IMG/VR virus record: IMGVR_UViG_3300023179_000127
Coordinates: 1 to 56,939 of that record
Reading direction: 5' to 3' (one strand)
DNA length: 56,939 nucleotides
Source: a virus
Shown here: in pieces, positions 11,597 through 55,845 of the stretch
Position numbering within the stretch: position 1 is the stretch's first letter
Layout: each line of letters begins with the position of its first letter
Notes under the pieces: generated by a model
Told to the model about the DNA's origin: nothing
Seen by the model: the letters and a program-made list of their open reading frames with translations, nothing else
Database searches by the model: none
Position numbers and translations under genes: made by a program

Positions 11597-12826
11597 TTAT
11601 CTAATAGTTCCTAAGTAGGGCCCGTATATTAAGAATGATGTGAAAGCTCCTGCATATGCTTCTTTGAATGAACCGCTAAGTACTTGCCATTGAGTGATAT
11701 ATTGACCGGTAAAGGCTAAGCCATCGCCAGCGCCAAGCTGACCCTCTTCATTTCTACCTACAGAATACGCATGATTTTCATTATCTACAACAACTGTGTG
11801 TTCATACCCTGCAGCTATTGATTTAATAGGGACACCGCCCCATGGACCTATGTTAGTTATATTTATAAAGCTAAGTGACATTGCTTGGCTGTTATTACCT
11901 AGCTGACCGGCATTATTAAATCCTGTAGAATATATTTTACCATCTTTGTCAATAGCAATTGTAAATGTAGATTTGCATGCAACATCTCTCCATACTATGT
12001 TGTCTGTGTTTTGCACAAAATATTCAGTTAATGTAGATGTACCTAATCCTATGGCGCCGGATAAGTTTGTACCAGCAGTAAACATGTTGTAATTACCGCC
12101 GCCGACGGATGATAGTAATATAGTAAAGTTGTTACCACAAAACACTTTGTCAAATCTAGGCTGTTCAACAGGAGTTACATTACCAGCCAAGCGAACTCTG
12201 GCGGGTGTTATGGGTGTAAATGAATAAAAGTTTGAAAAAGCAATTTCATTGAACCCGCATTGTGCATCAATATTTAAACCTGTTGTAAGTGCAACGCCAT
12301 CAGAACTTAATGCGCATGTGTGTAGCAAACCGCATGCAACATCTTTGAAACTGCCATTAATTGGTGTGAATAGTGCACAGCTTAACACACTTACACCGAG
12401 TCCCAATTGACCTTGTTCATTGTAACCAGTAACATACAGAGTGTTGCCTGCAATAGCTGCAGAATGTACAATACCAGCAGCAACTTTAGTGAAATTGGTA
12501 GGTGTTGGTACTCTTACAGTGCCTGGACCATCAAACATTGTAGAGGATACTTCAGGTACTAAACAAAACGAACTCACAATAAAGGTATGAGTGTTGGTCA
12601 CATTGTTGTCTAGACCTAACAAGCAACCTGTAAACTTATTAGATGGTACTGGATGACCAGGATTAGGCTCTAGAAGCAAATCTTTTACTAAAGGAACAAC
12701 ATCATTTACACCGGCACCGTATAATTTACCAGTAGAATCAATTGCAAGTGTATGATAATAACCACCGCCAACAGAATCCCATGTGCCTGTATTGGCAATG
12801 AATGTGGTTTGGTATGTCTGATTCAT
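11597..12826 (-). CDS. RCC1-repeat beta-propeller tail protein
   Basis: 409 residues made almost wholly of RCC1-type blades: an H-(T/S)-x-(A/V) strand followed by a turn of the form GxNxxGQLG. Clear blades are GGGYYHTLAIDSTGKLYGAG, GIVHSAAIAG...GYNEQGQLGLG, GLLHTCALSSDG, TFTIAIDKDGKIYSTGFNNAGQLG and GYEHTVVVDNENHAYSVGRNEEGQLGAG; six to seven repeats would close one propeller. RCC1 repeats are best known from eukaryotic chromatin and guanine-exchange proteins but are also used as binding scaffolds. It is a single-gene unit with its own late-promoter-like motif, between two operons of threonine-linker proteins. A role as a host-binding or fibre-attached head is inferred from the neighbours. Confidence 0.82.
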   Translation of the reverse strand: MNQTYQTTFIANTGTWDSVGGGYYHTLAIDSTGKLYGAGVNDVVPLVKDLLLEPNPGHPVPSNKFTGCLLGLDNNVTNTHTFIVSSFCLVPEVSSTMFDGPGTVRVPTPTNFTKVAAGIVHSAAIAGNTLYVTGYNEQGQLGLGVSVLSCALFTPINGSFKDVACGLLHTCALSSDGVALTTGLNIDAQCGFNEIAFSNFYSFTPITPARVRLAGNVTPVEQPRFDKVFCGNNFTILLSSVGGGNYNMFTAGTNLSGAIGLGTSTLTEYFVQNTDNIVWRDVACKSTFTIAIDKDGKIYSTGFNNAGQLGNNSQAMSLSFINITNIGPWGGVPIKSIAAGYEHTVVVDNENHAYSVGRNEEGQLGAGDGLAFTGQYITQWQVLSGSFKEAYAGAFTSFLIYGPYLGTIR

Positions 12827-17805: not shown

Positions 17806-19494
17806 TTATTTTATAACTGACCAAAAAGGTGCCCATTCACCAGGTAAAACAACAGGGCCTAACTTAAATGCACGGTTAAACCCAATTACAGCCATGGTTC
17901 CGTCCGAATTTAATGCTAATAACGTGTATTCGTTACCAAAGCCGTTGCTAGCAACATCTACTATCTTATTGCCGCTCATAGTGTTAAAGGGTGGGTTCAC
18001 TTCAATCCAACCTTTGTGATCACCTACGCCTTGTGTGCCAGGCATGTAGCCTGCAGCAAATAAACGACCATTATCTAGTAATAGCAAAGTTGTAGTAAAT
18101 TTGTTTGTACCGCCGCAAACTACAGTTTTAATAGTACTATCATATTCTCTAGCATCAAAAACTTTAGTAAATAGCTTAGTAGTGCCATCTGTTAAACTAT
18201 TGCCTAATTGCCCATAACCATTGTATCCGCAAGCGTATAGTTCATAACTGTCACTGGTTTTATAGAAAGTACTAGGAAACTCACCACCACCGGTATAAAC
18301 TGCGCCGACATTTACTGCTATTTGAGTGGCGCGTGTCAATTCTAAAGTGCTGTTGTTGCCTAATTGACTGTATGTATTAGCTCCCCACCCGTAAAGTATA
18401 CCGGCAGCATTAAGAGCAAAACAAGTTGACCCTACATTTGCTCCTTCTATTGCAATCTGAACAATGTTTGTTAAAGTTGTTTTGCTAATATCATTTTGAA
18501 CAGAATGCCAAATAGGATTTACAGACGCTTTGCCCCCGTCACCCATTTCTCCGTTAGAACCAGAGCCTATCGCTTTAACTTGACCGTTATTTAATAAAGC
18601 TAGTACTGTTGATCCTTTGGATATGACATAGTTTACGTTGGAAAGGTTGCATGAAATAACAGAACGCTTGGGTGTTGTGTCACCAGTGCCTAGCCAGCCG
18701 TAACTATTATGACCAAACCCATATAAGTCGTTGGTATTACTAGTGATAAACATTGTAGCAGAATTGCCACGAGTATGAAACGGTAGCATAATATTTTTAG
18801 GTACAAAGCCTAGCTCAGTTTGGCTTAAACTGTTTGCAATATCAAAATAAAGATAATTGTTTGTGCTGCCTTTACCATCACCAAAAGACCAATTACCGCC
18901 TAAAAATATTCTGCGCTCAGTGGTAATACCTGCCCAATATTGATAACCGTTGTAAACATAATCCCAATTATAATCGCGGTATGTGTAGGTGTTTCCAGCA
19001 GGGTTAACAGGATAAAAGGCGCTGTAACCTGTACGAACCTGTGATAAACCTACACTGTTAGTATTTCCAGAAAAGATTATGTGTTTTTGATTGCGGGAAA
19101 CAAGCAAATTGTAATCATATGCTCCTGCATTGCGTGGCAGCCCATTATATGAAAATCCTGTTGTATTATCAAGCGCTCCTAAGGAAGTAATTTTAATGTT
19201 ACCTGTACTAAAATCTAATGAGATACCATCTCCTGCAGAAAGCGATAATACACCATTATTTGATAGTACTACTCTGTTACCATCACGGAAAACATTAATT
19301 CCAGGGTTGCTTGATTCAATAGAAGTTACAGGGTCATTGCCTTCAGAAGATACTTGCACTTCATCCCATTTAGTCAAAAGATCATTTACAGTGATTTTGT
19401 ATGTGCCTGTATCATCTTGAATAATAAGATAATCAGTAGGTAAAGGGCTACCTATTAGCTTTGGCAAATCATTAATTTTGATTACATTCGACAT
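17806..19494 (-). CDS. Second RCC1-repeat tail protein
   Basis: 562 residues. Residues 1-120 form a fibre-type N-terminal domain (INDLPKLIGSPLPTDYLIIQDDTGTYKITVNDLL, then NGVLSLSAGDGISLDFSTGNIKI). From about 240 onward, RCC1-like blades appear: LYGFGHNSYGWLGTGD, QVKAIGSGSNGEMGDG, GILYGWGANTYSQLGNNS, ELYACGYNGYGQLGNS and RLFAAGYMPGTQGVGD, with a final TMAVIGFNRAFKLGP. The middle (about 125-240) has aromatic-rich strands including NYLYFDIANSLSQ. Compared with the RCC1 protein at 11597-12826 it has gained an attachment domain, so the two are not simple copies. It is a single-gene unit with a late-promoter-like motif, probably a propeller-headed fibre. Confidence 0.8.
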   Translation of the reverse strand: MSNVIKINDLPKLIGSPLPTDYLIIQDDTGTYKITVNDLLTKWDEVQVSSEGNDPVTSIESSNPGINVFRDGNRVVLSNNGVLSLSAGDGISLDFSTGNIKITSLGALDNTTGFSYNGLPRNAGAYDYNLLVSRNQKHIIFSGNTNSVGLSQVRTGYSAFYPVNPAGNTYTYRDYNWDYVYNGYQYWAGITTERRIFLGGNWSFGDGKGSTNNYLYFDIANSLSQTELGFVPKNIMLPFHTRGNSATMFITSNTNDLYGFGHNSYGWLGTGDTTPKRSVISCNLSNVNYVISKGSTVLALLNNGQVKAIGSGSNGEMGDGGKASVNPIWHSVQNDISKTTLTNIVQIAIEGANVGSTCFALNAAGILYGWGANTYSQLGNNSTLELTRATQIAVNVGAVYTGGGEFPSTFYKTSDSYELYACGYNGYGQLGNSLTDGTTKLFTKVFDAREYDSTIKTVVCGGTNKFTTTLLLLDNGRLFAAGYMPGTQGVGDHKGWIEVNPPFNTMSGNKIVDVASNGFGNEYTLLALNSDGTMAVIGFNRAFKLGPVVLPGEWAPFWSVIK

Positions 19495-30599: not shown

Positions 30600-32459
30600 T
30601 TAATACTCCGAAGGTACTACTTGCTGTAATGAAGGTGTTACTACTGATATTTTGTTTACAAACTCAAGAACATTGTGAATGTAAGGAAATTTAAAATAAG
30701 GCAGTTGTGTGTTCTGTGATACAATTGTAATGTCTGCTTCAGGATATATTGGATTGTATACAAGAAGGCTTATGCCAGGTGTTGATATGATTGTATCACC
30801 TATTTTTCTCTTGGTATTAATGTCTTTTACCCCTTCAATAGATAAGATAGCGTTTGTCAGATCAGTTATCTTGATAACTGAACCTAAATTGTCTCGGGTT
30901 GTAGAAAAATAGTTTTTCAAAATATTATATACAGAATTTTGAATTGATTGTGCATTTCTTTTTGCAAAGACATCTCTTGTAATTTCAAGATAACTTGTTT
31001 CAGCAATTGCTGAGTTAAGAGACTCACCTGGGCTTCTAATACCGAAATCTACTGCTACATACACTGGGTCATTAATTACAACTTCTGCAGTGGCAAGCTT
31101 TATGGGCTGTACATCGTTAATAATAAGTTGTTTTAATGCGCTGTTTAAATAATTGGTGCGTGTCACATAGCTTGTAAGTTTTTCTAATCTAGGCACTGCA
31201 TAAACGTAAATGTTGTTGAAATTGCATGAATCAGCAAACTTTACTTGATTGTACAGTACTCTTGATTCAAGAGTGGGGTTATTAACCCCCAAATCGAAAT
31301 AATACTTCATATGGCCTGTTAAGTAGTCCCAGTTGTTGACAACTTTTACTGATGCAAGAAGATTGTTATAATTTTTGTTAATATAATTTTCAAAGTCATT
31401 AACTGTTATGAGACGATACTGGCTTCGGAATGTATTTGATGCATTTGCTTTAATGTTTTGAACGCTTTCACGAGTGATAAATGGAGTTGAAGGATCTGAG
31501 TTTGAGAATGTAAGAGCAGGTATTAATTCAGCGGGTAATAAATTTAAGTCTGTAGCAACTGTGTCAGTTAATATGCTTTCAGCGCGCGGGGTTCTGTAGT
31601 AAAACAGTGTGTTGTTGTTTAAAACACCAGGGCCTACTTCACCTGCTGATCCATCAGTTCTTAAATAGTAGACAGCAACGCTATCACCAGCACTTAATTT
31701 TTTACCATTTATTCCATTGCCAAATTTTATTTCATACCTTTCATCTTCATTCATGCGTATTTCATATTTTTTAGAATTGCTTCTCTCGAGGTACAAGGAT
31801 TCTGTTGGTGTCCATTTCTCCCATACTGGGTTAACCACTGTGTTGTCTTTAACATATACGTCAATATTAAAATGATCTATTACTATGTTTTTGCCATTGT
31901 TATCAACAATAGTGAGTGTCAATGCTTCAAACGGATTGCCAATTGCAGTATATGTCGGGTATTCGTTAACAGAGCCTTGAAATAACACGTTTTCATCTTG
32001 TAATGATGCTAAAGTTTCAAAATCATTTGTAAGTTTAGAAAATGTTGTATCTTTTGTGAAAGTATAATTAATACCGTTAAGTGTGAAATAAGAATATCTA
32101 GGTATAGTATAAATGCCGGCAGGAAGAATATTATTAGATGTTGCTTTGAATGGCAAGATTGCAGATTGATATCCTACTGGTTTGTAGTTTATGAGTTTAA
32201 CAATCTTGTTTATGTTTTCATACAATTGCGCAGTTGTAAAGGTGCTTTCAGAGCTAGTTTGATTCAAATAAAACAACAACACATGGTATGCATAAGCGAT
32301 TATATCAATAAATGCTGAGATGTTACTGCCTTCAAAATTTTGATCAGTAAAAACTTTTGTATCATTAAGTCTTTTGACAATAAGACTTTTTAAGCTAAGC
32401 GCATCAAATGCAGCGTAAGCATCAGCAGCCAAACTATAATCGTTAAATTTTTGTGCCAT
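30600..32459 (-). CDS. 6: Baseplate wedge protein, gp6-like
   Basis: 619 residues, near T4 gp6 (660). The N-terminus (LKSLIVKRLNDTKVFTDQNFEGSNISAFIDIIAYAYHVLLFYLNQ) and the C-terminal half (ESVQNIKANASNTFRSQYRLITVNDFENYI; later VYNILKNYFSTTRDNLGSVIKITDLTNAILSIEGVKDI) fit the baseplate J/gp6 family. In T4, gp6 forms the ring that links wedges and drives the dome-to-star change. The gene follows the gp25-like gene with stop and start 2 nt apart (TAATTATG) and no clear SD, implying translational coupling. The gp25-gp6 order is typical of contractile tails. Confidence 0.85.
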   Translation of the reverse strand: MAQKFNDYSLAADAYAAFDALSLKSLIVKRLNDTKVFTDQNFEGSNISAFIDIIAYAYHVLLFYLNQTSSESTFTTAQLYENINKIVKLINYKPVGYQSAILPFKATSNNILPAGIYTIPRYSYFTLNGINYTFTKDTTFSKLTNDFETLASLQDENVLFQGSVNEYPTYTAIGNPFEALTLTIVDNNGKNIVIDHFNIDVYVKDNTVVNPVWEKWTPTESLYLERSNSKKYEIRMNEDERYEIKFGNGINGKKLSAGDSVAVYYLRTDGSAGEVGPGVLNNNTLFYYRTPRAESILTDTVATDLNLLPAELIPALTFSNSDPSTPFITRESVQNIKANASNTFRSQYRLITVNDFENYINKNYNNLLASVKVVNNWDYLTGHMKYYFDLGVNNPTLESRVLYNQVKFADSCNFNNIYVYAVPRLEKLTSYVTRTNYLNSALKQLIINDVQPIKLATAEVVINDPVYVAVDFGIRSPGESLNSAIAETSYLEITRDVFAKRNAQSIQNSVYNILKNYFSTTRDNLGSVIKITDLTNAILSIEGVKDINTKRKIGDTIISTPGISLLVYNPIYPEADITIVSQNTQLPYFKFPYIHNVLEFVNKISVVTPSLQQVVPSEY

Positions 32460-32461
32460 AA

Positions 32462-32950
32462 TTATTCAGTTGAAACATAGTAAAATCCAGAATTACTTAA
32501 TGTGCCTGTGAGTTTAATCACAGCTCCTTTCAATTTAGGCAGCTTCAAAAACATGTTAATGGTGTATTGATGATTGTCTTCATCCATGATTACCTGTATT
32601 CGTTCTACTTCGACTCTAGGTTCCCATGCTGTTATGGCTTTATATATCTCAGTACCGACTAAATTTGCGTTCACTGCATTCATGGGTGTGAACAAATATT
32701 GCATTATATTACAACCGAAATACGGGTTGAGGATTTTTTGGCCAGGAACTGTTGTTAATATGTTATAAATAGAATTGCGTATTGCAGCGTAATCTTTGTC
32801 AATCTTTAAATCTTTAATGGTTTTCTTTTTAAATAAACCTTCGCCTTTTGCATAATCTAGAGATAAATCAACGGCAAGATCGGAATATGTATATTCTGGT
32901 TCTAATGTAGATTGTTCTTTGCGAAGAGTTGTAAGATTAACATTTGCCAC
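32462..32950 (-). CDS. 25: Baseplate wedge protein, gp25-like
   Basis: 162 residues. Contains the gp25/GPW core: IRNSIYNILTTVPGQKILNPYFGCNIMQYLF (about 58-87), followed by ITAWEPRVEVERIQV and a terminal beta-hairpin. In contractile tails gp25 joins wedge to sheath and starts sheath assembly. The start is GTG at 32950-32948; no in-frame ATG lies near. A perfect TATAAATA stands 5 nt before this GTG, with no SD between, so initiation may be leaderless. It heads the operon gp25-gp6-27023. Confidence 0.88.
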   Translation of the reverse strand: MANVNLTTLRKEQSTLEPEYTYSDLAVDLSLDYAKGEGLFKKKTIKDLKIDKDYAAIRNSIYNILTTVPGQKILNPYFGCNIMQYLFTPMNAVNANLVGTEIYKAITAWEPRVEVERIQVIMDEDNHQYTINMFLKLPKLKGAVIKLTGTLSNSGFYYVSTE

Positions 32951-32955
32951 AAAAA

Positions 32956-32963
32956 TATTTATA
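32956..32963 (-). promoter_or_regulatory. Perfect late-promoter motif TATAAATA
   Basis: Exact T4 late -10 element, 5 nt (TTTTT) before the GTG start of the gp25-like gene. Confidence 0.75.
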
Positions 32964-32992
32964 GAAATACCTATATTATGAAACGGAGACCA

Positions 32993-32999
32993 TTAAATA
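32993..32999 (+). promoter_or_regulatory. Late-promoter-like motif ATTAAATA
   Basis: TTAAATA followed by the 6-nt spacer ATTTTA and the ATG at 33006. It is divergent from the gp25 promoter about 30 nt away. Confidence 0.55.
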
Positions 33000-33005
33000 A
33001 TTTTA

Positions 33006-33611
33006 ATGAATAGTAGGTTTTTGTCTTTATATGAATCTGCCATGGGGCGTTACCAGCATGGTGGTTTTTTAGTAGCGGATTTAGTAGAATTCACAGAAGG
33101 AGCATTAAAAGATCGTTTTTTTGAGGGTCAGCCTGAAAATATTAAAGAAATGGTAAAATCTTTTATTGAATGTGGTTTAAATCTGCGTGTAAAGTCTATC
33201 AAGTCGACTTTTCCTGCTGTAGGTGGTGCAGGTAACCCGGATTACAATGGTTTTAGTTTTGCAGTAGAAGTAACAAAAGAGCTTGCTCCGGGTCTTTACA
33301 GCCCTGATGTCATTGTAGTACCTGCTAATCTCTTGAAGATAAGAGACACTGGTGCAAATTTGGCTCCTGTTCCTGCTTCTTTAGTACGTGACGATAAATC
33401 ACACATTAAGCCTAAGGAAGTTGAAAATGGTGAGCAGGGTACCCAATATTTAAAGCCTGAAGATCAGACCAAGCTTTCAGATCATGGCAAAGGCAAGCAT
33501 GTTAAAGGCGATAGAGAATTGCTTAATAAAAATGTAAAGATTCCTGCTAAGACAGTTGAGGGTCAGAAAGATCCTGCAAAATATACTGCTAAATATTTAC
33601 CTTCTAGGTAA
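33006..33611 (+). CDS. Hypothetical protein, 201 aa
   Basis: A plus-strand gene inserted between minus-strand baseplate and replication genes. The N-terminus (FLSLYESAMGRYQHGGFLVADLVEF) and the segment MVKSFIECGLNLRVKSIKSTFP look like a folded domain; the last 80 residues are Lys/Pro/Glu-rich and probably disordered (HIKPKEVENGEQGTQYLKPEDQ; HGKGKHVKGDRELL). No family is recognised. Its late-promoter-like motif suggests late expression and perhaps a virion or assembly role. Its stop overlaps the end of the convergent clamp-loader gene by 8 nt. Confidence 0.75.
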   Translation: MNSRFLSLYESAMGRYQHGGFLVADLVEFTEGALKDRFFEGQPENIKEMVKSFIECGLNLRVKSIKSTFPAVGGAGNPDYNGFSFAVEVTKELAPGLYSPDVIVVPANLLKIRDTGANLAPVPASLVRDDKSHIKPKEVENGEQGTQYLKPEDQTKLSDHGKGKHVKGDRELLNKNVKIPAKTVEGQKDPAKYTAKYLPSR

Positions 33612-34536
33612 TATTTTTGTAAGCTAGCGAAATAAAGCAACTGTAACAATTTATTTCTTGATCTACTACAAATGCACTTCTGTACAGGTATTCAGAGATA
33701 ATTAGCAAATAAATTCTCTTGAGCTCATTGTCTGATATATTTTTATCTGCATAATTGAACATGTTGCGCAATAGAGAGATATAATCTGCGTTAAAATGCG
33801 ATTCATTTTCAATTAAAGCTTTGCGTATTTGTGATAAATTTTTATCTTTTATAGCAGCAAAAATGAGTTGTATTGTATCGTTGCAATTATTTTCTGGTAG
33901 CATTAGCTTGCCGGTGGCAGAATGTTTCTGTAATTCGTTAATACATTTTCTCAGGTCTGGATAATTAGATTTGACAAATTCAATTAGTTTAGTTTTTTGT
34001 GAATCGTTTATTTCAATCTTTTCTGTCTTGAGAATTTCGGCACATCTCTTGATAACACCTTCAATTGGTGGTGTCAGGTCTAGAGACTGGCAACGACTTT
34101 GCAATGCTGAGATAACCCGGTATTTGTAGTTTGCAGTTAAAATAAACCTTGTTATTTTAGCAAATTCTTCCATAGTATTACGAAGCGCGCGCTGAGCGTC
34201 TAATGACAGCCCGTCAGTTTCGTCAAGAATTATTACTTTAATAGCGCCATCAATGCTTTGTGTCTGTGCAAAGTTTGTTACTTTGGTTCTAATAGTATCA
34301 ATACCATTTTCATCGCTAGCGTTAATGTAAAGGTACTGGCATTTTAAAATGTCATTTACAATAATTTTTGCTAATGTGGTTTTACCTAAACCGGGTGTCC
34401 CAAGGAACAATAAATTCGGTATTTCTTTTTTATCTTTAAAAGACTCAATGATGCTTTTGTTAGATTCAAGTATAACAAAAGATTTTAGATCTTTGGGTCG
34501 GTATTTTTCTACCCACAAATTATTAAAGTTAAGCAT
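33604..34536 (-). CDS. 44: Sliding-clamp loader large subunit, gp44-like
   Basis: 310 residues, close to T4 gp44 (319). AAA+ clamp-loader motifs: LWVEKYRPKDL at the start, Walker A GTPGLGKT (46-53), Walker B VIILDET (101-107), sensor-1 LTAN (133-136) and the SRC arginine-finger motif (147-149). It loads the DNA polymerase clamp on primed DNA, together with a small subunit (gp62) not present in the window. The ATG overlaps the dUTPase stop (TAATG), so the two are translationally coupled and probably expressed early or mid-infection. Confidence 0.93.
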   Translation of the reverse strand: MLNFNNLWVEKYRPKDLKSFVILESNKSIIESFKDKKEIPNLLFLGTPGLGKTTLAKIIVNDILKCQYLYINASDENGIDTIRTKVTNFAQTQSIDGAIKVIILDETDGLSLDAQRALRNTMEEFAKITRFILTANYKYRVISALQSRCQSLDLTPPIEGVIKRCAEILKTEKIEINDSQKTKLIEFVKSNYPDLRKCINELQKHSATGKLMLPENNCNDTIQLIFAAIKDKNLSQIRKALIENESHFNADYISLLRNMFNYADKNISDNELKRIYLLIISEYLYRSAFVVDQEINCYSCFISLAYKNIT

Positions 34537-35000
34537 TATTTACCGGAAGAACCAAAGCCCTTCTCGCCTCGAGATGACTGTGTAGTAACACCCCATGCAA
34601 CATCCATATGTATGTTGAGATACACTACAAACTGTGCAATTCTATCACCAGCTTTAATATTATAATCAGTATCAGTCAAATTATAGAGCTTAACCCCGGC
34701 ATCGCCCCTGTAACCGCAGTCTATGATACCGGGATGCGCTAGAATTCCGTGCTTGAAGCCTAATCCGCTTCTAGATTCAACTTTAACCCAGTACCCTTCT
34801 GGTATATCAGCAAACTTTAAGCCTACCGGTACAACATTGCTTGAGCGTGCAGGTATGACAGCATCAGCAACAGAATAAATATCATAACCAGTATCAGACT
34901 CATGGTTTTTAGTAGGTAATTTGGCTAAATCATGCGTTTTTTCAAATTTAAGCACAGGCATGAACTGAATATTAGGATCTACATCATTTACACGTTGCAT
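34536..35000 (-). CDS. dut: dUTP diphosphatase (dUTPase)
   Basis: 154 residues from ATG at 35000. All five motifs of trimeric dUTPases are present: SDTGYDIYS (35-43), ESRSGLGF (75-82), GIIDCGYRGDAGVKLYN (91-107), GDRIAQFVV (118-126) and RGEKGFGSSG (144-153). It hydrolyses dUTP to dUMP, keeping uracil out of DNA and feeding dTMP synthesis. The frame is open upstream to a TTG at 35033, but the ATG is preferred because a TATAATA motif lies 5 nt before it, the spacing seen before other genes. It is coupled to the clamp-loader gene. Confidence 0.94.
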   Translation of the reverse strand: MQRVNDVDPNIQFMPVLKFEKTHDLAKLPTKNHESDTGYDIYSVADAVIPARSSNVVPVGLKFADIPEGYWVKVESRSGLGFKHGILAHPGIIDCGYRGDAGVKLYNLTDTDYNIKAGDRIAQFVVYLNIHMDVAWGVTTQSSRGEKGFGSSGK

Positions 35001-35005
35001 AACGT

Positions 35006-35012
35006 TATTATA
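35006..35012 (-). promoter_or_regulatory. -10-like motif TATAATA before dUTPase
   Basis: TATAATA on the minus strand, 5 nt (ACGTT) before the dUTPase ATG. It is closer to a host sigma-70 -10 box than the TAAATA motifs, fitting an earlier-expressed gene pair. Confidence 0.45.
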
Positions 35013-35040
35013 GTATATGTTTATAAAAATCAATATGTAA

Positions 35041-35047
35041 ATAAATA
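35041..35047 (+). promoter_or_regulatory. Late-promoter-like motif AATAAATA
   Basis: ATAAATA followed by the 5-nt spacer TATGT and the ATG at 35053. Confidence 0.6.
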
Positions 35048-35052
35048 TATGT

Positions 35053-35538
35053 ATGAGCGAAGAGCTTAATGAAATGGTAGGAGATCTACTGAATCAATTA
35101 GAAGATGCAAATAAAAAGGCTGTTGTTGCTAAGAAAGAAACTGATCCTCTTACAAAAGAAACTATGGAAAAGTTTGTAATTGAAAAGGCTGGCCGATTAG
35201 TAGAAGAAAGTTTAGAAGTTGTTAATAACATGAAAGATTTTGTGAGTTCAGCACCAGAATCTAGAGACATTTCATCGTTATCTGAATTAATTAATGCTAC
35301 TGCTTCAGCAATTGAAACACTTAATAAAATTATTGTTACTGAAAAGCGAAATGAAACTATTATTAAAGCTAAAACTATGGATATTGAATCAAGAAAAAAT
35401 TTAGCAGAAACTGCTCACAACACTAAATTGCTCGCTACAAGAGAAGAAGTGTTCAAAGCATTAATGGCTCAAGCTGTAGAAAACATGAATGCTATTGAAA
35501 CAAAAACGCAAGTTATAGAAGATAAAAAACAAGATTAA
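35053..35538 (+). CDS. All-helical protein, small-terminase (gp16) candidate
   Basis: 161 residues, almost entirely helical, with no Cys, Trp or Pro-rich segment. Residues of about 38-115 (FVIEKAGRLVEESLEVVNNMKDFV, then LSELINATASAIETLNKIIVTEKR) resemble the central coiled-coil region of T4-type small terminases, where two helices pack around a loop with a conserved acidic/prolyl segment; size also matches gp16 (164). The resemblance is by pattern only. The gene is 16 kb from the large terminase, unlike T4 where 16 and 17 adjoin. Other helical scaffold or chaperone roles are possible. It has a late-promoter-like motif, and its stop overlaps that of the convergent 611-residue gene. Confidence 0.6.
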   Translation: MSEELNEMVGDLLNQLEDANKKAVVAKKETDPLTKETMEKFVIEKAGRLVEESLEVVNNMKDFVSSAPESRDISSLSELINATASAIETLNKIIVTEKRNETIIKAKTMDIESRKNLAETAHNTKLLATREEVFKALMAQAVENMNAIETKTQVIEDKKQD

Positions 35539-37370
35539 TCTTTATTATTAAATCCTTCTTGTAGTTTTTGTAATCCGCCTTGTGATGTACCTCCACCGGA
35601 TCCACCAAACAGGGAGCTTATAGACGACATTATCTTGCCAATAAACCCTAATCCAGGTATCATGGATGCAAATTGACCTATTAAGTTTAAGAACCCGGTG
35701 ATTGACACTTTGGGTATGAAGTTGGATTGTTTATAACCAAAATTACCTGGTGTAAAGGATTGTAATGAAGAGAAGTTACCTAATGGCATTGCAGGTAATT
35801 GGAATCCTGCAAATTGCTGCCCAATGCTTAGCAGCTGATTTGCAGAGCCTAATGATTGCAAGCTGCTGAAAGAAAGAGGAGAAGCTGAAGGTATAGTGAA
35901 CGGCAGACTGTACCCTGCCATGTTAAAGTTGTTTAAGTTTAAATTGCCTAAACCGCCAAAGCTGCCTAAACTGCCCAATCCGCCTGTAAGCAATCCTGTG
36001 TTTGGTAAAAGGTTTTGAAGTTGACTTGTTATGCGCGGTGTCAAGTTGTCTTTTAATATTTCTGCGCGATTTACAAAAGCTTGATATATAAATTCTGGCA
36101 TTGCAACTCCAAATTGGTTAACATTAACTACATTTGTATTGTTTAAACCGGGGTTAGTTAGATTGGAAAGACTTGCATCACGGGTTTTGTAAGATACAGT
36201 GGCTACTATAGCAGTACGTGTTGATCTGTCGCTAACAGATTTTTGAATTTTCTTTTGATTTAAATCAATGTATTGTTTTCTGTTTTCAACATTCTTTGTT
36301 ATATGCAGGGTTTTTATTTTTTGAAGATTGGCACCAGTACGTGCAGACCCGATCATTCTAGGGTTATATGCGGATGTGTCGTTAATGTTGCTAAAATAAA
36401 TGGCAAATTCATAGGTTTTGCCTAATAGTGTTTTTAATCTGTCTACTAATTCAGATAAATAGCCTTTAAAATTTGTATGGAAGTTAATATCAGTAACTAA
36501 ATTTAGACCATGTGGTTTTGTGGAATCAATAAGTATGTTGTACAAATCTGATGTCTTCTGAATGCGTATTAAATTAGTTCTCATGAGTGATGTGTTTTTG
36601 CGGCTCATATCGGTCATGAGGCTTCGTGTGTTTTCGCTTATTTTGCTATTGAGAGTAGGGGGAATTAAAATTGGAGGGCCATATAAACTGCAATTCATAT
36701 CAGCAACTGGTACAATCGAGTCATCAATTTTGTATGATTGATTTAAAAGTGTGCCAATGCTGTCGCTAAAATCGCCTAGAAACCCTAAATCACTGCCTTT
36801 TTTACTTTTGACCTGCTCTTGAACTTCATCAATGGCTGTTTTAAACTTTTTATACCAAAAATAAATGAAATCGTCATCAAGATTTTTCATTTTTTCAATT
36901 TCTAAATTGTTAAAAAACTCTGTTTGCTTGGTGACCACATCATTAGAAACTTGAGTTTTAAAATATTCAATGGCTATATCAAGTTCGTTCTCATAATCAC
37001 CAACTAAATCAAGAAAATTAGTAAACTTTTTAACAAATTCTGTTGAATTTGCTAAATTTATAAAAAGTAAATCAGGCAATGTTGTTTTTGTTATCTTTGT
37101 ACCAGTATTTTTGTTAGTACTTGTTAATTTTTTGTTTTCCAATACAGCTATGCTTGTTTGCTCGCTATTTACATCAGGATATGAAGCGCTTATTTCTTTT
37201 TCAACATCATATGTAAATGTTTTCATGTATGATGCTTGTGTTTCTGCGCTTGCAGGTTTAGTTGGCACAGCAGTTGACGGGCCGTTAGGGTTAGGTGGCT
37301 CAGGTAAAGCCATGATTGCTGGGTCTTTAAATAAATCTCTTGCAATTACTGTAGATGTTTGTTCGGCCAT
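35535..37370 (-). CDS. Probable baseplate structural protein, 611 aa
   Basis: 611 residues, third gene of the operon gp53-like, gp27-like, this one. The N-terminal half is mixed and partly helical (LDLVGDYENELDIAIEYFKTQV; DDDFIYFWYKKFKTAIDEVQ). Residues of about 430-600 are a low-complexity Gly/Leu/Asn/Phe/Ser region (GGLGSLGSFGGLGNLNLNN) with a hydrophobic patch (ITGFLNLIGQFASMIPGLGFIGKIM) near the C-terminus. A GGGA ribosome site precedes the ATG. I do not recognise the family; operon position implies a hub or spike-associated part. No lysozyme domain like that of T4 gp5 was seen. Confidence 0.6.
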   Translation of the reverse strand: MAEQTSTVIARDLFKDPAIMALPEPPNPNGPSTAVPTKPASAETQASYMKTFTYDVEKEISASYPDVNSEQTSIAVLENKKLTSTNKNTGTKITKTTLPDLLFINLANSTEFVKKFTNFLDLVGDYENELDIAIEYFKTQVSNDVVTKQTEFFNNLEIEKMKNLDDDFIYFWYKKFKTAIDEVQEQVKSKKGSDLGFLGDFSDSIGTLLNQSYKIDDSIVPVADMNCSLYGPPILIPPTLNSKISENTRSLMTDMSRKNTSLMRTNLIRIQKTSDLYNILIDSTKPHGLNLVTDINFHTNFKGYLSELVDRLKTLLGKTYEFAIYFSNINDTSAYNPRMIGSARTGANLQKIKTLHITKNVENRKQYIDLNQKKIQKSVSDRSTRTAIVATVSYKTRDASLSNLTNPGLNNTNVVNVNQFGVAMPEFIYQAFVNRAEILKDNLTPRITSQLQNLLPNTGLLTGGLGSLGSFGGLGNLNLNNFNMAGYSLPFTIPSASPLSFSSLQSLGSANQLLSIGQQFAGFQLPAMPLGNFSSLQSFTPGNFGYKQSNFIPKVSITGFLNLIGQFASMIPGLGFIGKIMSSISSLFGGSGGGTSQGGLQKLQEGFNNKD

Positions 37371-39176: not shown

Positions 39177-39545
39177 TTAAGCAAGGAGTCGTTTAATATC
39201 AGATATAATGTTTTTAATGTATTGGGGCTTTACAATTTTAATGTAAGTACCTTGTGCAGGGATAATAACGGGGTTTCTTATTTTATTAACTAAACATATT
39301 AACCACCACAATTCAATTGTTTGATAAGCATTGAAGCTCACTGTAGTCCATGGAGATCTCTTTTTAACTTGCATTAGATACACTTTTTCATCATCAACTT
39401 CATAATTATTCAAAGAAATAGCTTTTGAAATGTTATAAAAATATTGATTATCGTCTGTTTTGTACACTTTGAATATGTTTTCATATCTAGATGGTACTAA
39501 CTGCGGTAAATCTGTAATATCGTTTTGATATGAACCTTGTTCCAT
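39177..39545 (-). CDS. 53: Baseplate wedge protein, gp53-like
   Basis: 122 residues. SPWTTVSFNAYQTIELWWLICLVNKIRNPVIIPAQGTYIKI (about 64-104) has the LysM-like pattern of phage baseplate wedge proteins such as gp53: W...S...Y.T..LWW.I...N.I.NP...P..G..I.I. gp53 caps the wedge and helps join wedges around the hub. The protein is shorter than T4 gp53 (196) and lies next to hub genes, which fits. A perfect TATAAATA lies 6 nt before the ATG. Confidence 0.72.
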   Translation of the reverse strand: MEQGSYQNDITDLPQLVPSRYENIFKVYKTDDNQYFYNISKAISLNNYEVDDEKVYLMQVKKRSPWTTVSFNAYQTIELWWLICLVNKIRNPVIIPAQGTYIKIVKPQYIKNIISDIKRLLA

Positions 39546-45425: not shown

Positions 45426-46340
45426 TTAGAGTATACCTATAGGATTTATACTGCCTATGCCATTCTGTAGAGTAGTAATGCGTGGTACTTGACCATTTGC
45501 AATACGGTTAACAATGTCGGATACAGGAAGATACAAGCTATTTTCAACAGTATAATTTGAGTATGTCCATCTGGTTTGATAAGTAACAAGCTTTTCATTA
45601 TCATATTCATATGTTTGCTCAGAAATATTGTACGGTACGCAATTGTAAAATGAAAATACTTTTCTAGGTATCATGGAAATGTTTTGAAATGATCGTGTGT
45701 ATGAAAGCAAAGTCATATTCACTTTCATGTTTTTTAAGTCAGGTACTCTTGCTGTAGGTGTGTCGTTAGGCCGTGCTACCATGCCAAAATGCGAGCCTAG
45801 TATGACCCATGGTCTTAAAACGTTGTCAACAAAAGATGTGTTTGTTTCTTTAAATGTAATAACTAAGGAAGGGGGTTCTGTGTTTCTTGCATTGGCAATA
45901 ATACCAGGTATAAAGCCTCTGTTGTTATTCACAGACACAGATCCTGGTTCAAAACTTTCAGTGGGTATAGTTACATCATGAGCAAACAAACAACCAATGA
46001 TTTTTTGCAATGGAAAGCTTTTTAAAATTGAGACAGCAGTGTTAATGTTGTAACCTTTTCTAGAGCCGTCAGTACGTTCTAATGCTTGCAAGATAGATGA
46101 ATTTAATGCTGCGGGATACCTGTCGATAACAACTATCCATTGAGTTGACATTGGAATCGTTGTAAACCAAGATTCCATTTGAAACAGAAAGTAATCTCTT
46201 ACGCTAATTAATGGTACTGCAGGTAAGTTAAACCCGAACAAGTCTGTGATTTGCGGGGCAAATAAAGGGTTAGTACCCCTTCCAATGTTTTGAAAATTCT
46301 CTGCTAAGCCTGTAAAAGCAGAGTTAAACGGGTTGTTCAC
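45426..46340 (-). CDS. Baseplate/tail-tube initiator protein (gp54/gp48-like)
   Basis: 304 residues with a GTG start at 46340. The sequence SLVITFKETNTSFVDNVLRPWVILGSHFGMVAR, then KVFSFYNCVPYNISEQTYEYDNEKLVTYQTRWTYSNYTVEN, has the tube-protein-like beta plan found in the baseplate proteins that nucleate the tail tube of T4-like phages. It follows the tube gene, and the late-promoter motif TTAATAAATA lies 5 nt before the GTG. Assignment to gp54 rather than gp48 is a guess. Confidence 0.6.
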   Translation of the reverse strand: MNNPFNSAFTGLAENFQNIGRGTNPLFAPQITDLFGFNLPAVPLISVRDYFLFQMESWFTTIPMSTQWIVVIDRYPAALNSSILQALERTDGSRKGYNINTAVSILKSFPLQKIIGCLFAHDVTIPTESFEPGSVSVNNNRGFIPGIIANARNTEPPSLVITFKETNTSFVDNVLRPWVILGSHFGMVARPNDTPTARVPDLKNMKVNMTLLSYTRSFQNISMIPRKVFSFYNCVPYNISEQTYEYDNEKLVTYQTRWTYSNYTVENSLYLPVSDIVNRIANGQVPRITTLQNGIGSINPIGIL

Positions 46341-46355: not shown

Positions 46356-46904
46356 TTAGGTCAATTTTCTAAAATAATGATAAGCAAATGTGACAGGGAA
46401 TTCTACTGTTTCACCGGTTCCACCAGCAATATTGTAATTGATGGCACCGACGCTACGAATAGAAACACCTACTAGCTGATATTGAGCAATCTTAGCCAGC
46501 TGATTGTCAAGCTGTACTAAATCCATGATGGCTGTCTGTTTGGGAGAGAAATAGTTACCAGTGCTTGTGCTGTCATCGAAAATATCACGAGACCATTGTT
46601 CAAACTTCTGTCTGAGCTGAGAAGCAGCATCACAATAAAAATTCAATGTGTAAGCTTCACTGCCTGGATATGTTGCATTACCAGGAAGATTGAAGTTTAA
46701 GCCCATGTAAGGAACAGCAACATTTGTAATTGCTCTTTCAGGCAATGAAGCGGATTTGCAATACACTAAATCATCTTGATTGAAGGATACATTGCTTGCT
46801 CCACCGGTGTTGATTGAGAGAACACGGAAATTATAATCGCGTGCGAACTCTCTACTTGCTGCTACTCTGTAAAAGTCTGTGATTAATTGTGATACATCAG
46901 CCAT
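46356..46904 (-). CDS. 19: Tail tube protein, gp19-like
   Basis: 182 residues, close to T4 gp19 (163). Features of the family: an N-terminal helix (QLITDFYRVAASREFARDYNFRVLSI), a loop with SASLPERAITNVAVPYMGLNFNLPG, the YTLNFYCD strand, then FEQWSRDIFDD and a terminal TFAYHYFRKL strand. It stacks as hexamers to form the inner tube. It follows the sheath gene, as in T4 (18 then 19). Confidence 0.88.
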   Translation of the reverse strand: MADVSQLITDFYRVAASREFARDYNFRVLSINTGGASNVSFNQDDLVYCKSASLPERAITNVAVPYMGLNFNLPGNATYPGSEAYTLNFYCDAASQLRQKFEQWSRDIFDDSTSTGNYFSPKQTAIMDLVQLDNQLAKIAQYQLVGVSIRSVGAINYNIAGGTGETVEFPVTFAYHYFRKLT

Positions 46905-49260: not shown

Positions 49261-49863
49261 TTACAAACTATCTGTATTTTCTACTAAATTGGCAATTAAT
49301 TGTGAATAGCTAAATGTAAATGTAGTTTCTATTTCTGTTGATGATCTGTTACTAAGATTAATACCGCCAAGACTTACAGGAAATGCATCTTTATAGAGAA
49401 ATTCAATTATTTTTTTCTCATATTCATCCAAAATAAATAGTGAAATATTTGCGCGGTATTCAATTTTTGAGATAGTGTATGCATTAGTTTTACTAGTGTT
49501 AGTCTGAGTACCGTCGCGTTGATCGTTGAGTAAGTTTAGCCAAGTATATATGACCCAATAATTATTAAACCGGTTATCAATTGTAAAATTAACTGTGATG
49601 GGCTCCCATGGTGGCCGGGCTTTAGTAGATATAGACAAAGGTTGGCCACTGTATGCCAAATCCAGTGCAGGTATGTTAATATCTGGCACTACTGCACCAT
49701 AAACAGAAAATTGTAATGCATTAGGAATAATGCCTGTGTTTGATCGTGTAAATTTTGCAGCTACTTTTTTAAGTGCATCAGGAAAATTTAGCACCATGAT
49801 GAACTTGTCACTACGGGCTTTGTTAAACGGGCTTTGAATAAATTCTGAACTGCTAGTTGCCAT
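49261..49863 (-). CDS. Tube-fold protein, paralogous style to gp19
   Basis: 200 residues. VVPDINIPALDLAYSGQPLSISTKARPPWEPITVNFTIDNRFNNYWVIYTWLNLLND followed by FLYKDAFPVSLGGINLSNRSSTEIETTFTFSYSQL follows the plan of tail-tube fold proteins. It lies between terminase and sheath, where T4 has no gene, so it may be a second tube-type, tube-terminator or baseplate component. The ATG is 3 nt after the terminase stop; a weak TTAAATTA precedes it. Confidence 0.6.
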   Translation of the reverse strand: MATSSSEFIQSPFNKARSDKFIMVLNFPDALKKVAAKFTRSNTGIIPNALQFSVYGAVVPDINIPALDLAYSGQPLSISTKARPPWEPITVNFTIDNRFNNYWVIYTWLNLLNDQRDGTQTNTSKTNAYTISKIEYRANISLFILDEYEKKIIEFLYKDAFPVSLGGINLSNRSSTEIETTFTFSYSQLIANLVENTDSL

Positions 49864-49866
49864 ACA

Positions 49867-51573
49867 TTAATTTAATCTTCTCCATCCTTGTTGGAACAAA
49901 TCATCAACATCTGTAGGGTCATTATTGTCTCCTCTTATAACAATTGGTAATGGCATCATGGTTGTCTCTTTGTCTTTCTCGTTGCTGTAAATTGAAGTGG
50001 GGTTAATAAAATTTTTCAAACCGTAATCTAGCGCTTTAAGTTTCATGGGTCTTTTGTTTTCATCTAATTCTAAAATTTCAAAATAAGTATTAACCAATTC
50101 ACTTTCGAGTATTATTAATGCCCATACCAAACTCATGATTCTGTCGTCCCAGCTATCTACCCCGGGTTTTGCAGCCCATGTACCATTAGGGTATCTTACA
50201 AAACCGCGTAGCTCATTTAATGTCTGTATATCATGTATTTTTACAGAGCGTAATTCATTGACCCAGTAGCGCATGTTGACTACCCCTTTGTACTTTGTAT
50301 TGGTATGCGCAAGTATTCCAATTTTTTTAAATGTTTTATCAGCGCCAATTTTTGGCCCGTAAGTGACAACATTTTCGTAGCCAAGTGTAAATTTAAGTTG
50401 GTCAACTACTTGCGCTCCGCAATTATTTCTTTCAATTAATGCGGGCGGTGATCCCCAATGCAAGAGTATTTCATGTAATTTGGTTGTAAAGTTGTACGGG
50501 CTAATATGTCTATCATGGTAAATTGCGACTTGCTTTATGTTTCTCAAATCAGACAAATCAAGCACTTGTACACAGCTAGCTGCTTCTCCTATGCCTTCTG
50601 AAACGTCAACCCCCACAACATAAATACCATCTTTGTTGGGTTCTTCCCAAAGCAAGTATTTTCCTTCATCAAAAATAAATGGCGGGTCATAGCATTCTGA
50701 TTTTAATTCTAAAAATAATTTTTCATTAATAGCACTTTCACCAGTTTGAATAAACACATTGCCAAACTCTTGATCAAATGCATCAATGCTGCCCAAGGTG
50801 CGGATTGTTTTCTCTTTCCACTCCTCATCACGTCCTGGTACTTCCCACCAATCAACTCGCTCAGCATGCCACCCGTTTTTATTTTCCATGGCTCCAGTAT
50901 ACAATTCATGAAATAAATTTCCTGTACCGTTGGGGGTGCTTGCGACAAATATTTTTGATTTTTTAGAACTAGATATAATTGGATAGACTGATTTCCAAAA
51001 TTGTTCCACAAGATGATTATCAATAAACGCTAACTCATCTAATATAACAACATTTACAGATTCACCTCGACCTGCATCACTACTAGTAGTAGAGATACCA
51101 ATGGATGACCCATTACCTAATGTCATGGATGTCTTGCCATATTCTACGGCACCAGGTTTTAAATAATTCGGCAATTGTTCATATGCTAGGCGTACTCGTT
51201 TAAAAATGTTAATAGCAGTCTGTTCTTTATTTGCCACAATGAGTAATCTTTGATCTTCAAAAAAGCATGCTATCCATAATGCATAGATGGTCATTAAGGT
51301 TGTTTTGCCTATTTGTCGACTAGCAAGAAGACAAACAAATCTGTTGTCACGCAACCCTCTTAAAACGCGTTTCTGGTAATTGTGCAAAGCAATCTTTTCT
51401 TTACCTCTATCCAGATTAACAATATAGAAGAAATTTTCTGCAAAATAAATGATATTTTTTCTGCATTTAGCTATGTCTGCTACCCATTCTGGATGACTAG
51501 CATAATCAAATGCTGCATCTGGAGAAGGCAGGTTCTTATTACCCAAGTAATATTTTTCATTTTTTTCAGGCAT
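49867..51573 (-). CDS. 17: Terminase large subunit, gp17-like
   Basis: 568 residues, near T4 gp17 (610). ATPase motor: Walker A SRQIGKT (85-91), Walker B VVILDE (175-180), coupling motif VASTPNGTGN (210-219). RNase H-like nuclease: VVGVDVSEG (Asp323), ALIERNN (Glu381) and DSWDDRIMS (Asp476/477). It cuts concatemeric DNA and pumps it into the prohead through the portal (not in this window). It is divergent from the scaffold-like gene at 51593, sharing a 16-nt A/T-rich intergenic segment. Confidence 0.96.
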   Translation of the reverse strand: MPEKNEKYYLGNKNLPSPDAAFDYASHPEWVADIAKCRKNIIYFAENFFYIVNLDRGKEKIALHNYQKRVLRGLRDNRFVCLLASRQIGKTTLMTIYALWIACFFEDQRLLIVANKEQTAINIFKRVRLAYEQLPNYLKPGAVEYGKTSMTLGNGSSIGISTTSSDAGRGESVNVVILDELAFIDNHLVEQFWKSVYPIISSSKKSKIFVASTPNGTGNLFHELYTGAMENKNGWHAERVDWWEVPGRDEEWKEKTIRTLGSIDAFDQEFGNVFIQTGESAINEKLFLELKSECYDPPFIFDEGKYLLWEEPNKDGIYVVGVDVSEGIGEAASCVQVLDLSDLRNIKQVAIYHDRHISPYNFTTKLHEILLHWGSPPALIERNNCGAQVVDQLKFTLGYENVVTYGPKIGADKTFKKIGILAHTNTKYKGVVNMRYWVNELRSVKIHDIQTLNELRGFVRYPNGTWAAKPGVDSWDDRIMSLVWALIILESELVNTYFEILELDENKRPMKLKALDYGLKNFINPTSIYSNEKDKETTMMPLPIVIRGDNNDPTDVDDLFQQGWRRLN

Positions 51574-51586: not shown

Positions 51587-51592
51587 CTTATG

Positions 51593-52474
51593 ATGAATAG
51601 AAAAAGATCACTTGAGAACATAAGTATGGTTTATGAGAAGAACATCTCGTTTAGCACGTTCGAGCAAGAAACTGGTAAAACAGTTGGCGAAAAAGACAGC
51701 AAGAAAAACCCTTTCGTTTTTAAAAACACAGGGCCGGAAAGCGCTGAAGGGTTTAAGAAAGAGCTCATTAAGCCTTCTGAAAAAGCTAAAGAAAAAGTAA
51801 AAGACAATTTTTACAAGCCAGAAAAATTTTCACAAAACCTTGAAAAAACAGAAGTAAAAGGTATAAATAATTTTATGAACAAATCCATCTTTGACAAACT
51901 TTATGAAGATGTCATGGGTTCTCAGCATGGCGATGTTGAAGCATCCGACGCTGAAGCGCTCGGACTTCCTTCTCCTGAAACATCGGGCGACGAGTCCGAG
52001 AAATCCACAAAAGAGCTAGTAGCTGACGCTATTGCCGCTCTTCAAAAGCTACATGATTCGCTACCTGATGAAGGTGGTGATGAAGCAGCTGGCGAAGAAG
52101 GTGCTGGTGAAGAAAAGCCTGCTGGTTCTGAAGACGCTGAAAAGAAAGCTGACGAAGATGAAGAAGAAGGCGAGAAGGAAGAAGAAAAAGATGAAGCTCA
52201 CAAAGAAGCCACTGAGCTCAAGGAACTTCCAGATAGCGCTGGCCAGTCTTTAACAAAGAAAGACAACAAGGTCGGTGATGCTACAAAGAGCCTTGCTAGC
52301 AAAGGTACTGCCGATGCTAAGACAACTGATAAAGTTGGTAATGATGGTGACAAAGGTCATGCATTAGTTGGTGCCGGTGTCAAAGGCGGCGCTCCAACAA
52401 GCCCCAAGGGCAAAGCCAACGTAGTTGCTAGCAACACATCCAAAGTTGGTGCTTACCTCGCTGGCCTCAAATAA
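51593..52474 (+). CDS. Acidic Lys/Glu-rich protein, prohead scaffold/core-like
   Basis: 293 residues if started at the second ATG, chosen because it gives the usual 6-nt spacing to TTAAATA; the first ATG at 51590 adds one Met. The N-terminal 90 residues are basic and mixed (KKNPFVFKNTG, KELIKPSEKAKEKVKDNFY). A short segment MNKSIFDKLYEDVMG looks like a folded or assembly helix. Residues of about 130-215 are extremely acidic (EEEGEKEEEKDEA) and Ala/Gly-rich; the C-terminus is Lys/Gly/Ala/Ser-rich. High charge and low complexity recall T4-type core scaffold or internal proteins, but no family is certain. Codons are richer in G and C than in neighbouring genes. A strong terminator follows. Confidence 0.7.
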   Translation: MNRKRSLENISMVYEKNISFSTFEQETGKTVGEKDSKKNPFVFKNTGPESAEGFKKELIKPSEKAKEKVKDNFYKPEKFSQNLEKTEVKGINNFMNKSIFDKLYEDVMGSQHGDVEASDAEALGLPSPETSGDESEKSTKELVADAIAALQKLHDSLPDEGGDEAAGEEGAGEEKPAGSEDAEKKADEDEEEGEKEEEKDEAHKEATELKELPDSAGQSLTKKDNKVGDATKSLASKGTADAKTTDKVGNDGDKGHALVGAGVKGGAPTSPKGKANVVASNTSKVGAYLAGLK

Positions 52475-52534: not shown

Positions 52535-52540
52535 CTATTG

Positions 52541-52897
52541 ATGACTTTCAAGGATTATTACAGTCAAAAGACTGATGCAGCTGCTAAATTAACACCTGGT
52601 GTACAGAGTCGGCACATGCACCCTACTTTGAGAGACGTGCCTACTAATGCTAAATACCCTGGGAGAGTTGTTCCGCATTATCTACGTGCAGATAACAATA
52701 GAATACAAAAAATAGAAAACGCTAAGAGAGCTGTTAAAGGTGCATTCATACCGTTGAATTCACGTGAGCTAAGACGCATAAAACGCCTTTACAATGTAGA
52801 TTATAATATTCACGAGCCTAAAGCGTTGAAGGGTATACCGTCAGTAACATTAGAATATGACCCTGTAGCTAAACGCGCAGGGTTAAGAAAGAATTAA
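52541..52897 (+). CDS. Small basic hypothetical protein
   Basis: 118 residues from ATG at 52541; a TTG three bases earlier is in frame but less likely. It is basic, with Arg/Lys-rich helices (NRIQKIENAKRAVKGAFIPL, SRELRRIKRLYNVDY) and a Pro-containing N-terminus. It starts a two-gene late unit with the neck protein, so a head-completion or DNA-contacting structural role is plausible. No family recognised. Confidence 0.72.
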   Translation: MTFKDYYSQKTDAAAKLTPGVQSRHMHPTLRDVPTNAKYPGRVVPHYLRADNNRIQKIENAKRAVKGAFIPLNSRELRRIKRLYNVDYNIHEPKALKGIPSVTLEYDPVAKRAGLRKN

Positions 52898-55434: not shown

Positions 55435-55845
55435 ATGGCACTATTTAAGAATAAGTTTAATTTTGTATTAGAAGCTAAGGATGATGTTGAAGATGCACCG
55501 ACAGGACCGGCCACAGACAAAGAAGCAATGGCAGGTGCATTAGATACTGCAACACCACAAGACTTTGATGTTTCTGCTCCTGGTAGACAGCCAGTAGAAG
55601 ATGTGCACACCGGTGAGCAAGTCAGCTTGCTGCAGCAATGGATTGGTCAAATTGATCAGTTCATTGAATATCTCAACGGCACAAGCCCTGATTCAATTCA
55701 AACTAAGCTTCATGCAGCGCCTTGTGATACTATTTTTGAAGATATTGCTAGAAGTGAGAAAAAGAAAATTTCTCGTCTGGCAGCAGAATTAAGCTCACTT
55801 AGTGAATCACTAAAAGGTTATCTAATTTCAGCGAACGACAGATAA
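55435..55845 (+). CDS. Hypothetical protein, 136 aa, possible head component
   Basis: The N-terminus (FKNKFNFVLEAKDDVEDAPTGP) leads into an acidic, disordered stretch to about residue 58; the rest is helical (VSLLQQWIGQIDQFIEYLNG; KKKISRLAAELSSLSESLKGYL). Late-type promoter and composition would fit a minor capsid or core protein, but no family is recognised. Its last 18 nt overlap the end of the convergent primase gene. Confidence 0.7.
   Translation: MALFKNKFNFVLEAKDDVEDAPTGPATDKEAMAGALDTATPQDFDVSAPGRQPVEDVHTGEQVSLLQQWIGQIDQFIEYLNGTSPDSIQTKLHAAPCDTIFEDIARSEKKKISRLAAELSSLSESLKGYLISANDR

Follow-up and report, generated by a model that had tools for sequence, protein, structure and literature searches.

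Why do genes for DNA replication stand among the baseplate genes of a T4-like virus, and what is the small late-type gene beside them? These questions arise at positions 33006-35538 of the window. The window covers the entire virus record (56,939 bases) and represents part of a myovirus, carrying genes for sheath, tubes, baseplate, neck and the large terminase (TerL). The block reads 33006 (+), clamp loader (-), dUTPase (-) and 35053 (+), and all four open reading frames are present. A first-pass annotation had proposed that the dUTPase and the clamp loader form a coupled pair with a TATAATA-type promoter inside the baseplate cluster, and that the 35053 gene is a candidate for the small terminase (gp16, TerS).

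A replication pair in a fixed cassette

The clamp loader gene (33604..34536, minus strand) encodes an ATPase of the T4 gp44 type (PHROG 168, 1e-79), an AAA+ protein (PF00004, 5.3e-14) with a gp44 lid domain (Gp44_lid, PF21328, 2.8e-12) whose sequence carries the Walker A motif GTPGLGKTT and an SRC motif. The dUTPase (34536..35000, minus strand, ATG start set from relatives; PHROG 135, 9.1e-44) matches PF00692 (1.6e-24) over profile positions 3-129 of 129, i.e. the trimeric dUTPase domain extends over its full length. The dUTPase stop and the clamp-loader start have one base in common (TAATG at 34536), and this overlap bears out the coupling. Both proteins resemble their counterparts, T4 gp44 and phage dUTPases, in family matches and in the presence of the catalytic motifs. 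Their setting is different. In T4 gp44 sits in the replication cluster, in the order 45-44-62, whereas in the window the clamp loader is paired with a dUTPase in the baseplate region.

That the pair lies inside the baseplate cluster was also confirmed, with late-type plus-strand genes on both sides and baseplate genes beyond. Upstream in coordinate order are a gp6-like baseplate wedge protein (30600..32459, minus strand; PHROG 219, 3.3e-42) and the gp25 baseplate wedge protein, with a GTG start (32462..32950, minus strand; PF04965, 4.8e-16), whose top profile match is T4 gp25, with phiM9 gp25 second. The next gene, 33006..33611 (plus strand), encodes a conserved late-type protein without assigned function and is convergent with the clamp loader gene, which it overlaps by 8 bases. 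Its protein matches nothing in PHROG and nothing in Pfam over the cut-off, a profile comparison against 257 families gave nothing convincing, and a single-sequence scan found no relatives, though the family is plain from synteny. On the other side of the pair, the 35053 gene (35053..35538, plus strand) is convergent with, and overlaps by 4 bases, a neighbour conserved in synteny and without family match (35535..37370, minus strand); a gp53-like baseplate gene follows at 39177..39545 (PHROG 7145, 2.8e-5).

We compared this order in 59 close records, comprising the window, two genomes (162 and 158 kb) and 56 loci; contigs from two scans were counted once, and near-identical contigs were all kept. 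The eight genes gp6 (-), gp25 (-), 33006 (+), clamp loader (-), dUTPase (-), 35053 (+), 35535 (-) and 37372 (-) are all found in 49 of the 59. The remaining 10 show the same unbroken order with genes absent at one end, so that order and strands are kept in 59/59 as far as the contigs reach. A second, more distant group, in which gp6 is about 40% identical, keeps gp25 (-), 33006 (+), clamp loader (-), dUTPase (-) and 35053 (+) in 19/19 loci (L152 was left out as truncated or repeated). Even in a third, remote set the clamp loader (-), dUTPase (-) and 35053 (+) stand in order in 28 of 33 loci, four of the exceptions being cut by contig ends (L160, L169, L170, L172) and one rearranged (L177); here L163, L191 and loci counted before were left out as truncated or repeated. 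Within this uncultured T4-like clade, a large group of water phages, the block 33006-35538 forms a fixed cassette.

Several lineages (L166, L171, L177, L190 and L192) have an interrupted or rearranged cassette. About 7 kb separates the dUTPase from the 35053 gene in L166, with the order kept; L190 and L192 carry inserts between 33006 and the dUTPase, and that of L190, which separates 33006 from the clamp loader, is fibre-like; and no 33006 match was found in L171 and L180-L182. The clamp loader itself is interrupted in some distant relatives. In L137:6083-7462 and L138:6083-7462 (-) an intein-like insert lies directly after the Walker B motif, with Pfam Intein_splicing values of 2.2e-8 and 1.7e-8, slightly under the curated cut-off. 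In L149:4731-7532 and L190:4599-6913 (-) the insert is divided between two genes, and a free-standing nuclease-like ORF separates its halves, a layout that we take to be the arrangement called fractured genes with split inteins; the nuclease reading draws on Pfam hits that are weak in L190 and absent in L149.

A tblastn search of 50,697 named phage records returned no relative of the 35053 protein, and neither the 35053 nor the 33006 family is represented in RM378, whose TerL is 32% identical to that of the window. Among bacterial genome contigs, 65 stretches fitted a pattern and none was confirmed as a relative of the 35053 protein, so they give no clue to the host. A literature search yielded nothing plainly about this cassette, and the available portions of PMC6630229 (Atu_ph04) and PMC4360716 (Far-T4) do not mention it; those of the latter report for Far-T4 phages a conserved gene order in which structural genes and replication genes form separate modules (PMC4360716).

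Promoter motifs at the start codons

The timing of these genes can be approached from their promoter motifs. A late-promoter motif, TATAAATA, lies before gp25 (32956..32963, minus strand), its ATAAATA beginning 12 nt upstream of the start codon, and a second ATAAATA (35041..35047, plus strand) lies 12 nt upstream of the 35053 ATG. Of 59 distinct upstream regions, 55 carry the late motif 11-15 nt before the 35053 start; in the other four it precedes an ATG that lies upstream of the start chosen by the script. The pair is preceded by TATAATA, a -10-type element (35006..35012, minus strand). A dUTPase start at TTG 35033 was considered and rejected, since relatives begin at ATG 35000, and TATAATA stands exactly 12 nt upstream of that ATG. 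A -10-like hexamer lies 11-14 nt ahead of the dUTPase start in 31 of 47 distinct upstream regions (in 27 at exactly 12 nt), compared with 57/940 in shuffles. A generic sigma-70 scan of 32400-35700 gave 14 sites, no improvement on the 13.2 expected from shuffles, and the case for the TATAATA-type promoter of the pair is therefore made by the conserved position of the motif, which supports it.

The spacing is not peculiar to this locus. Of 21 copies of ATAAATA in the window, 12 precede a start on their own strand by no more than 60 nt, where 0.5 would be expected, and their distances are all between 12 and 16 nt; in two large relatives the figures are 36/75 and 39/94 (2.6 and 3.1 expected). NTAAATA occurs at 11-14 nt in 49/190, 45/174 and 17/42 genes of the three gene sets (the two large relatives and the window; shuffle means 2.7, 1.9 and 0.5), and TATAAT-like hexamers occur at the same distance in 24, 14 and 5 genes of these sets (6.8, 5.6 and 1.5 in shuffles). 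The motif is common to the late promoters of T4 (TATAAATA) and the cyanophages (NATAAATA) and, as in the window, stands at late-type genes. The distances differ, however, peaking at 12-14 nt before the start codon in the window and the two large relatives and lying at 19-42 nt in a 49-kb T4 late region. T4 also shows a peak of Shine-Dalgarno-like words at 9-11 nt, which is not seen in the two large relatives and is mild in the window. In these comparisons the genes of T4 and S-ShM2 were taken as annotated and chosen by hand, and all others came from a simple ORF caller.

The early-type -10 hexamer is placed at -12 to -7. One source, in its available part, places the T4 late motif at -13 to -6 (PMC1524935), and the accessible text of another gives NATAAATA as the late motif used by cyanophages (PMC2984593). 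With late-type and early-type (TATAAT) motifs beginning some 12 nt ahead of start codons throughout the genome, transcription is predicted to start on the ATG, and many messages of the window and of the two large relatives are thus probably leaderless. At this locus, the late motif at gp25 and 35053 and TATAATA at the dUTPase support an early dUTPase-clamp loader pair with late neighbours, a timing read from the promoter motifs, and predict leaderless messages. If host-type and gp55-type promoters are both fixed at the start codon, the same dozen bases would set gene timing and translation start. No clear counterpart of the phiM9 sigma factor was found, and a literature search, with most subscription journals outside its scope, turned up no plain report of leaderless T4-like late messages.

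Identity of the 35053 protein

The 161-residue 35053 product, a probable small terminase, is recognized only at the level of family profiles. PHROG and Pfam scans matched no gp16 model and gave weak matches only, to families without a fitting function; PDB sequence searches did not recover the gp16 structure. The profile search against gp16 suggested in the first-pass annotation, done here with hhalign, failed with a narrow family and succeeded with a broad one. Narrow 35053 families compared with 13 gp16 proteins gave probabilities of 1.5% and 0.8%, the second already in the later gp16 register. In the first own-genome rankings against gp16 the narrower family came 3rd to 6th of 395, mostly in a wrong register, and a global-alignment ranking (ranks 4, 12 and 15 of 152) was uninformative. 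The narrow comparison is insensitive because the close relatives are too alike. Successive scans then enlarged the family to 41 members, 31-88% identical to the window protein and picked for diversity among those found. Its profile matched that of 17 gp16 proteins with a score of 32.2 (P 1.7e-4, probability 49%) over 95 co-linear columns, and that of 13 gp16 proteins with a score of 31.4.

The alignment lines up the hairpin helices, the turn between them (SAPESRD vs. SDSPR-type) and the C-terminal motif (LLATREEVFK vs. FVGS-type). The gp16 motif (FVGS..EL) falls on a conserved motif near R130-E131, to which it has partial similarity only; within the 35053 family R130 is invariant and E131 nearly so. 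Controls scored 14.6 (gp16 reversed) and 13.1 (35053 family reversed), and 100 column shuffles did not exceed 15.2. The virus's own group supplied 395 families, 3 of which are 35053 itself, and the best of the others reached 24.0 over 18 columns. We also ranked 261 families built from stretches of T4, S-ShM2, Mel-JY01, phiM9, phiM12, SH-Ab 15599 and RHph_I1_18. Ranks 1-4 were the gp16 proteins of T4, SH-Ab 15599 (ORF039, gp16 by PHROG 735, 2.3e-19), S-ShM2 and phiM9, with modest scores of 19.1-22.6 in this smaller form, and these four templates have common members and hence are not independent. Of the six gp16 genes, that of RHph_I1_18 ranked 29th and that of phiM12 was not identified in the ranking. 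A like test on other window genes (257 families, templates of at least 900 columns being left out) led from gp25 to gp25, from 44590 to gp28 and gp26, from 43826 to gp26 and from 45426 to the tail tube; these matches speak for the reliability of the ranking.

The predicted structure points the same way. The AlphaFold model (mean pLDDT 77; 85-92 in blocks of ten over residues 41-120) has helices at 2-29, 35-65 (with one break at 59) and 70-154 and a turn at 66-69, and so predicts a central helical hairpin as in the gp16 oligomerization domain. A fold search of BFVD placed a T4-type small terminase at rank 2, not significantly, and two further small terminases at ranks 28 and 29; Foldseek against the PDB listed no terminase among the best 50 matches, and VIA-align gave nothing usable. 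The 35053 protein has in common with T4-type gp16 (T4, Straboviridae; Kyanoviridae) its size, the modelled central hairpin and a late promoter, and its C-terminal motif, similar in part, stands in co-linear register with that of gp16. It differs in that there is no direct sequence match, the gene is not beside gp17, and the helix is continuous after the hairpin in the model. Nor is an N-terminal helix-turn-helix visible there, the N-terminus being the single helix 2-29; in the accessible text of PMC9958956 that of T4 gp16 is described as potential.

Long helices could nevertheless make an unrelated late protein, such as a baseplate or tail assembly factor or an internal virion protein, mimic gp16. 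The gene does stand among baseplate genes, direct family searches of its protein fail, and coiled-coil proteins can match helix patterns by chance. But the reversed and shuffled controls and the other families score far below gp16, the alignment is co-linear across both hairpin and C-terminal motif, and gp16 comes first among the 261 families, so that we consider such mimicry unlikely. A replication accessory protein of the clamp loader, e.g. a diverged gp62, is suggested by the nearby gp44-type gene and by the failure to find gp62 (PF16790) or the gp45 N-terminal domain (PF02916) in 8/8 large relatives; with 35053 on the opposite strand behind a late-type promoter, and its profile matching gp16, this seems very improbable.

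UvsY, the recombination mediator, had to be excluded because its gene lies beside gene 25 in T4 (order uvsY-25), and it is alike in size and helix content. However, PF11056 was found elsewhere in 8/8 large relatives, in 6 of them over the curated cut-off, and in the genomes of 162 and 158 kb the gene that carries it adjoins a UvsW-like gene; PF11056 matches neither the 35053 protein nor the short records L106 and L110. UvsY being encoded at another place in the relatives tested, we rejected this identity, to which we give next to no credence. A gp16 encoded elsewhere was also sought in the 8 large relatives. PHROG 445 and PHROG 735 had no match there (the records are possibly incomplete), and a search with a gp16 alignment gave a hit in 0/8; as the 35053 gene itself was also missed, this is a weak test for another gp16.

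No strong match of the 35053 protein to another family, which the first-pass annotation had named as its refutation, turned up. The co-linear gp16 match above controls, the four best places among 261 families and the location of UvsY elsewhere make TerS the most likely identity and support the proposed candidacy; we hold the 35053 protein to be, very probably, a strongly diverged gp16.

A probable small terminase encoded apart from the large one

The large terminase gene (gp17, 49867..51573, minus strand; PHROG 5989, 2.7e-51; PHROG 2, 1.9e-48) had been placed 16 kb away. It is indeed far from 35053, at 14.3 kb edge to edge, and 16.5 kb applies only from start to start. In T4 gp16 overlaps gp17. 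The highest identity of the window TerL among the phage-record matches listed, 38%, is to Sinorhizobium phage phiM9, of the Pootjesviridae. In that family gp16 stands directly before gp25-gp6 in P10VF and RL38J1 and three small genes before them in phiM9, where PHROG 31126 confirms it, and gp17 is several kilobases from gp16 in phiM9 and P10VF. For Atu_ph04, of the phiM9 group, the two terminase proteins are apart by gene number (gp53 and gp80) in the portion of PMC6630229 available. The displacement of gp16 itself therefore has precedent, gp16 being away from gp17 and near gp25-gp6 in phiM9, P10VF and RL38J1, as the candidate is in the window. The arrangements are not identical. In Pootjesviridae gp16 and gp25 share a strand, with gp16 after a uvsW-like helicase gene, whereas the window candidate is on the opposite strand, with 33006, the clamp loader and the dUTPase in between. 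The window would keep the gp16/gp25-gp6 neighbourhood known from Pootjesviridae, with the early pair and the 33006 gene set between.

We propose the following working of the cassette. From a host-type TATAATA promoter placed at its start codon, the dUTPase would be expressed early on a leaderless message and would keep uracil out of new DNA, and TAATG would couple its translation to that of the gp44-type clamp loader, the ATPase loading the sliding clamp. The 35053 protein, as a diverged gp16, would be made late from its ATAAATA promoter; its central two-helix hairpin may form an oligomer, presumably a ring, and its C-terminal tail may engage and regulate gp17. With gp17 encoded 14 kb away, the two terminase subunits would be expressed from separate units. 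We think it likely that the clade follows an early/late programme of the T4 type with hardly any 5' leaders, and with a separated terminase subunit made from a leaderless unit.

A small-terminase identity would put a name to a gene family to which the libraries searched assign no function and which belongs to a widespread group of uncultured T4-like phages, and would mean that gp16-gp17 linkage is not needed; the locus would also offer a rigid, long-kept early-in-late cassette. The leaderless reading, if true, would make this an unusual case, a large lytic phage with leaders missing from early and late messages alike, and would inform on translation start in the hosts of the clade.

Some other genes of the window deserve mention. 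The proteins of four plus-strand genes (33006-33611, 51590-52474, 52538-52897 and 55435-55845) begin with a similar short aromatic pattern (RFLSLYESA, FKDYYSQ, KFNFVLEA), perhaps a targeting or processing signal. The fibre region holds two RCC1-repeat-like proteins (11597-12826 and 17806-19494) and several large proteins with a PHROG 15511 module in common. Tail-tube-like genes (46356-46904 and 49261-49863) lie on either side of the sheath gene, and 45426-46340, which also matches a tube family in the profile comparison, is on that account perhaps the counterpart of gp54 or gp48.
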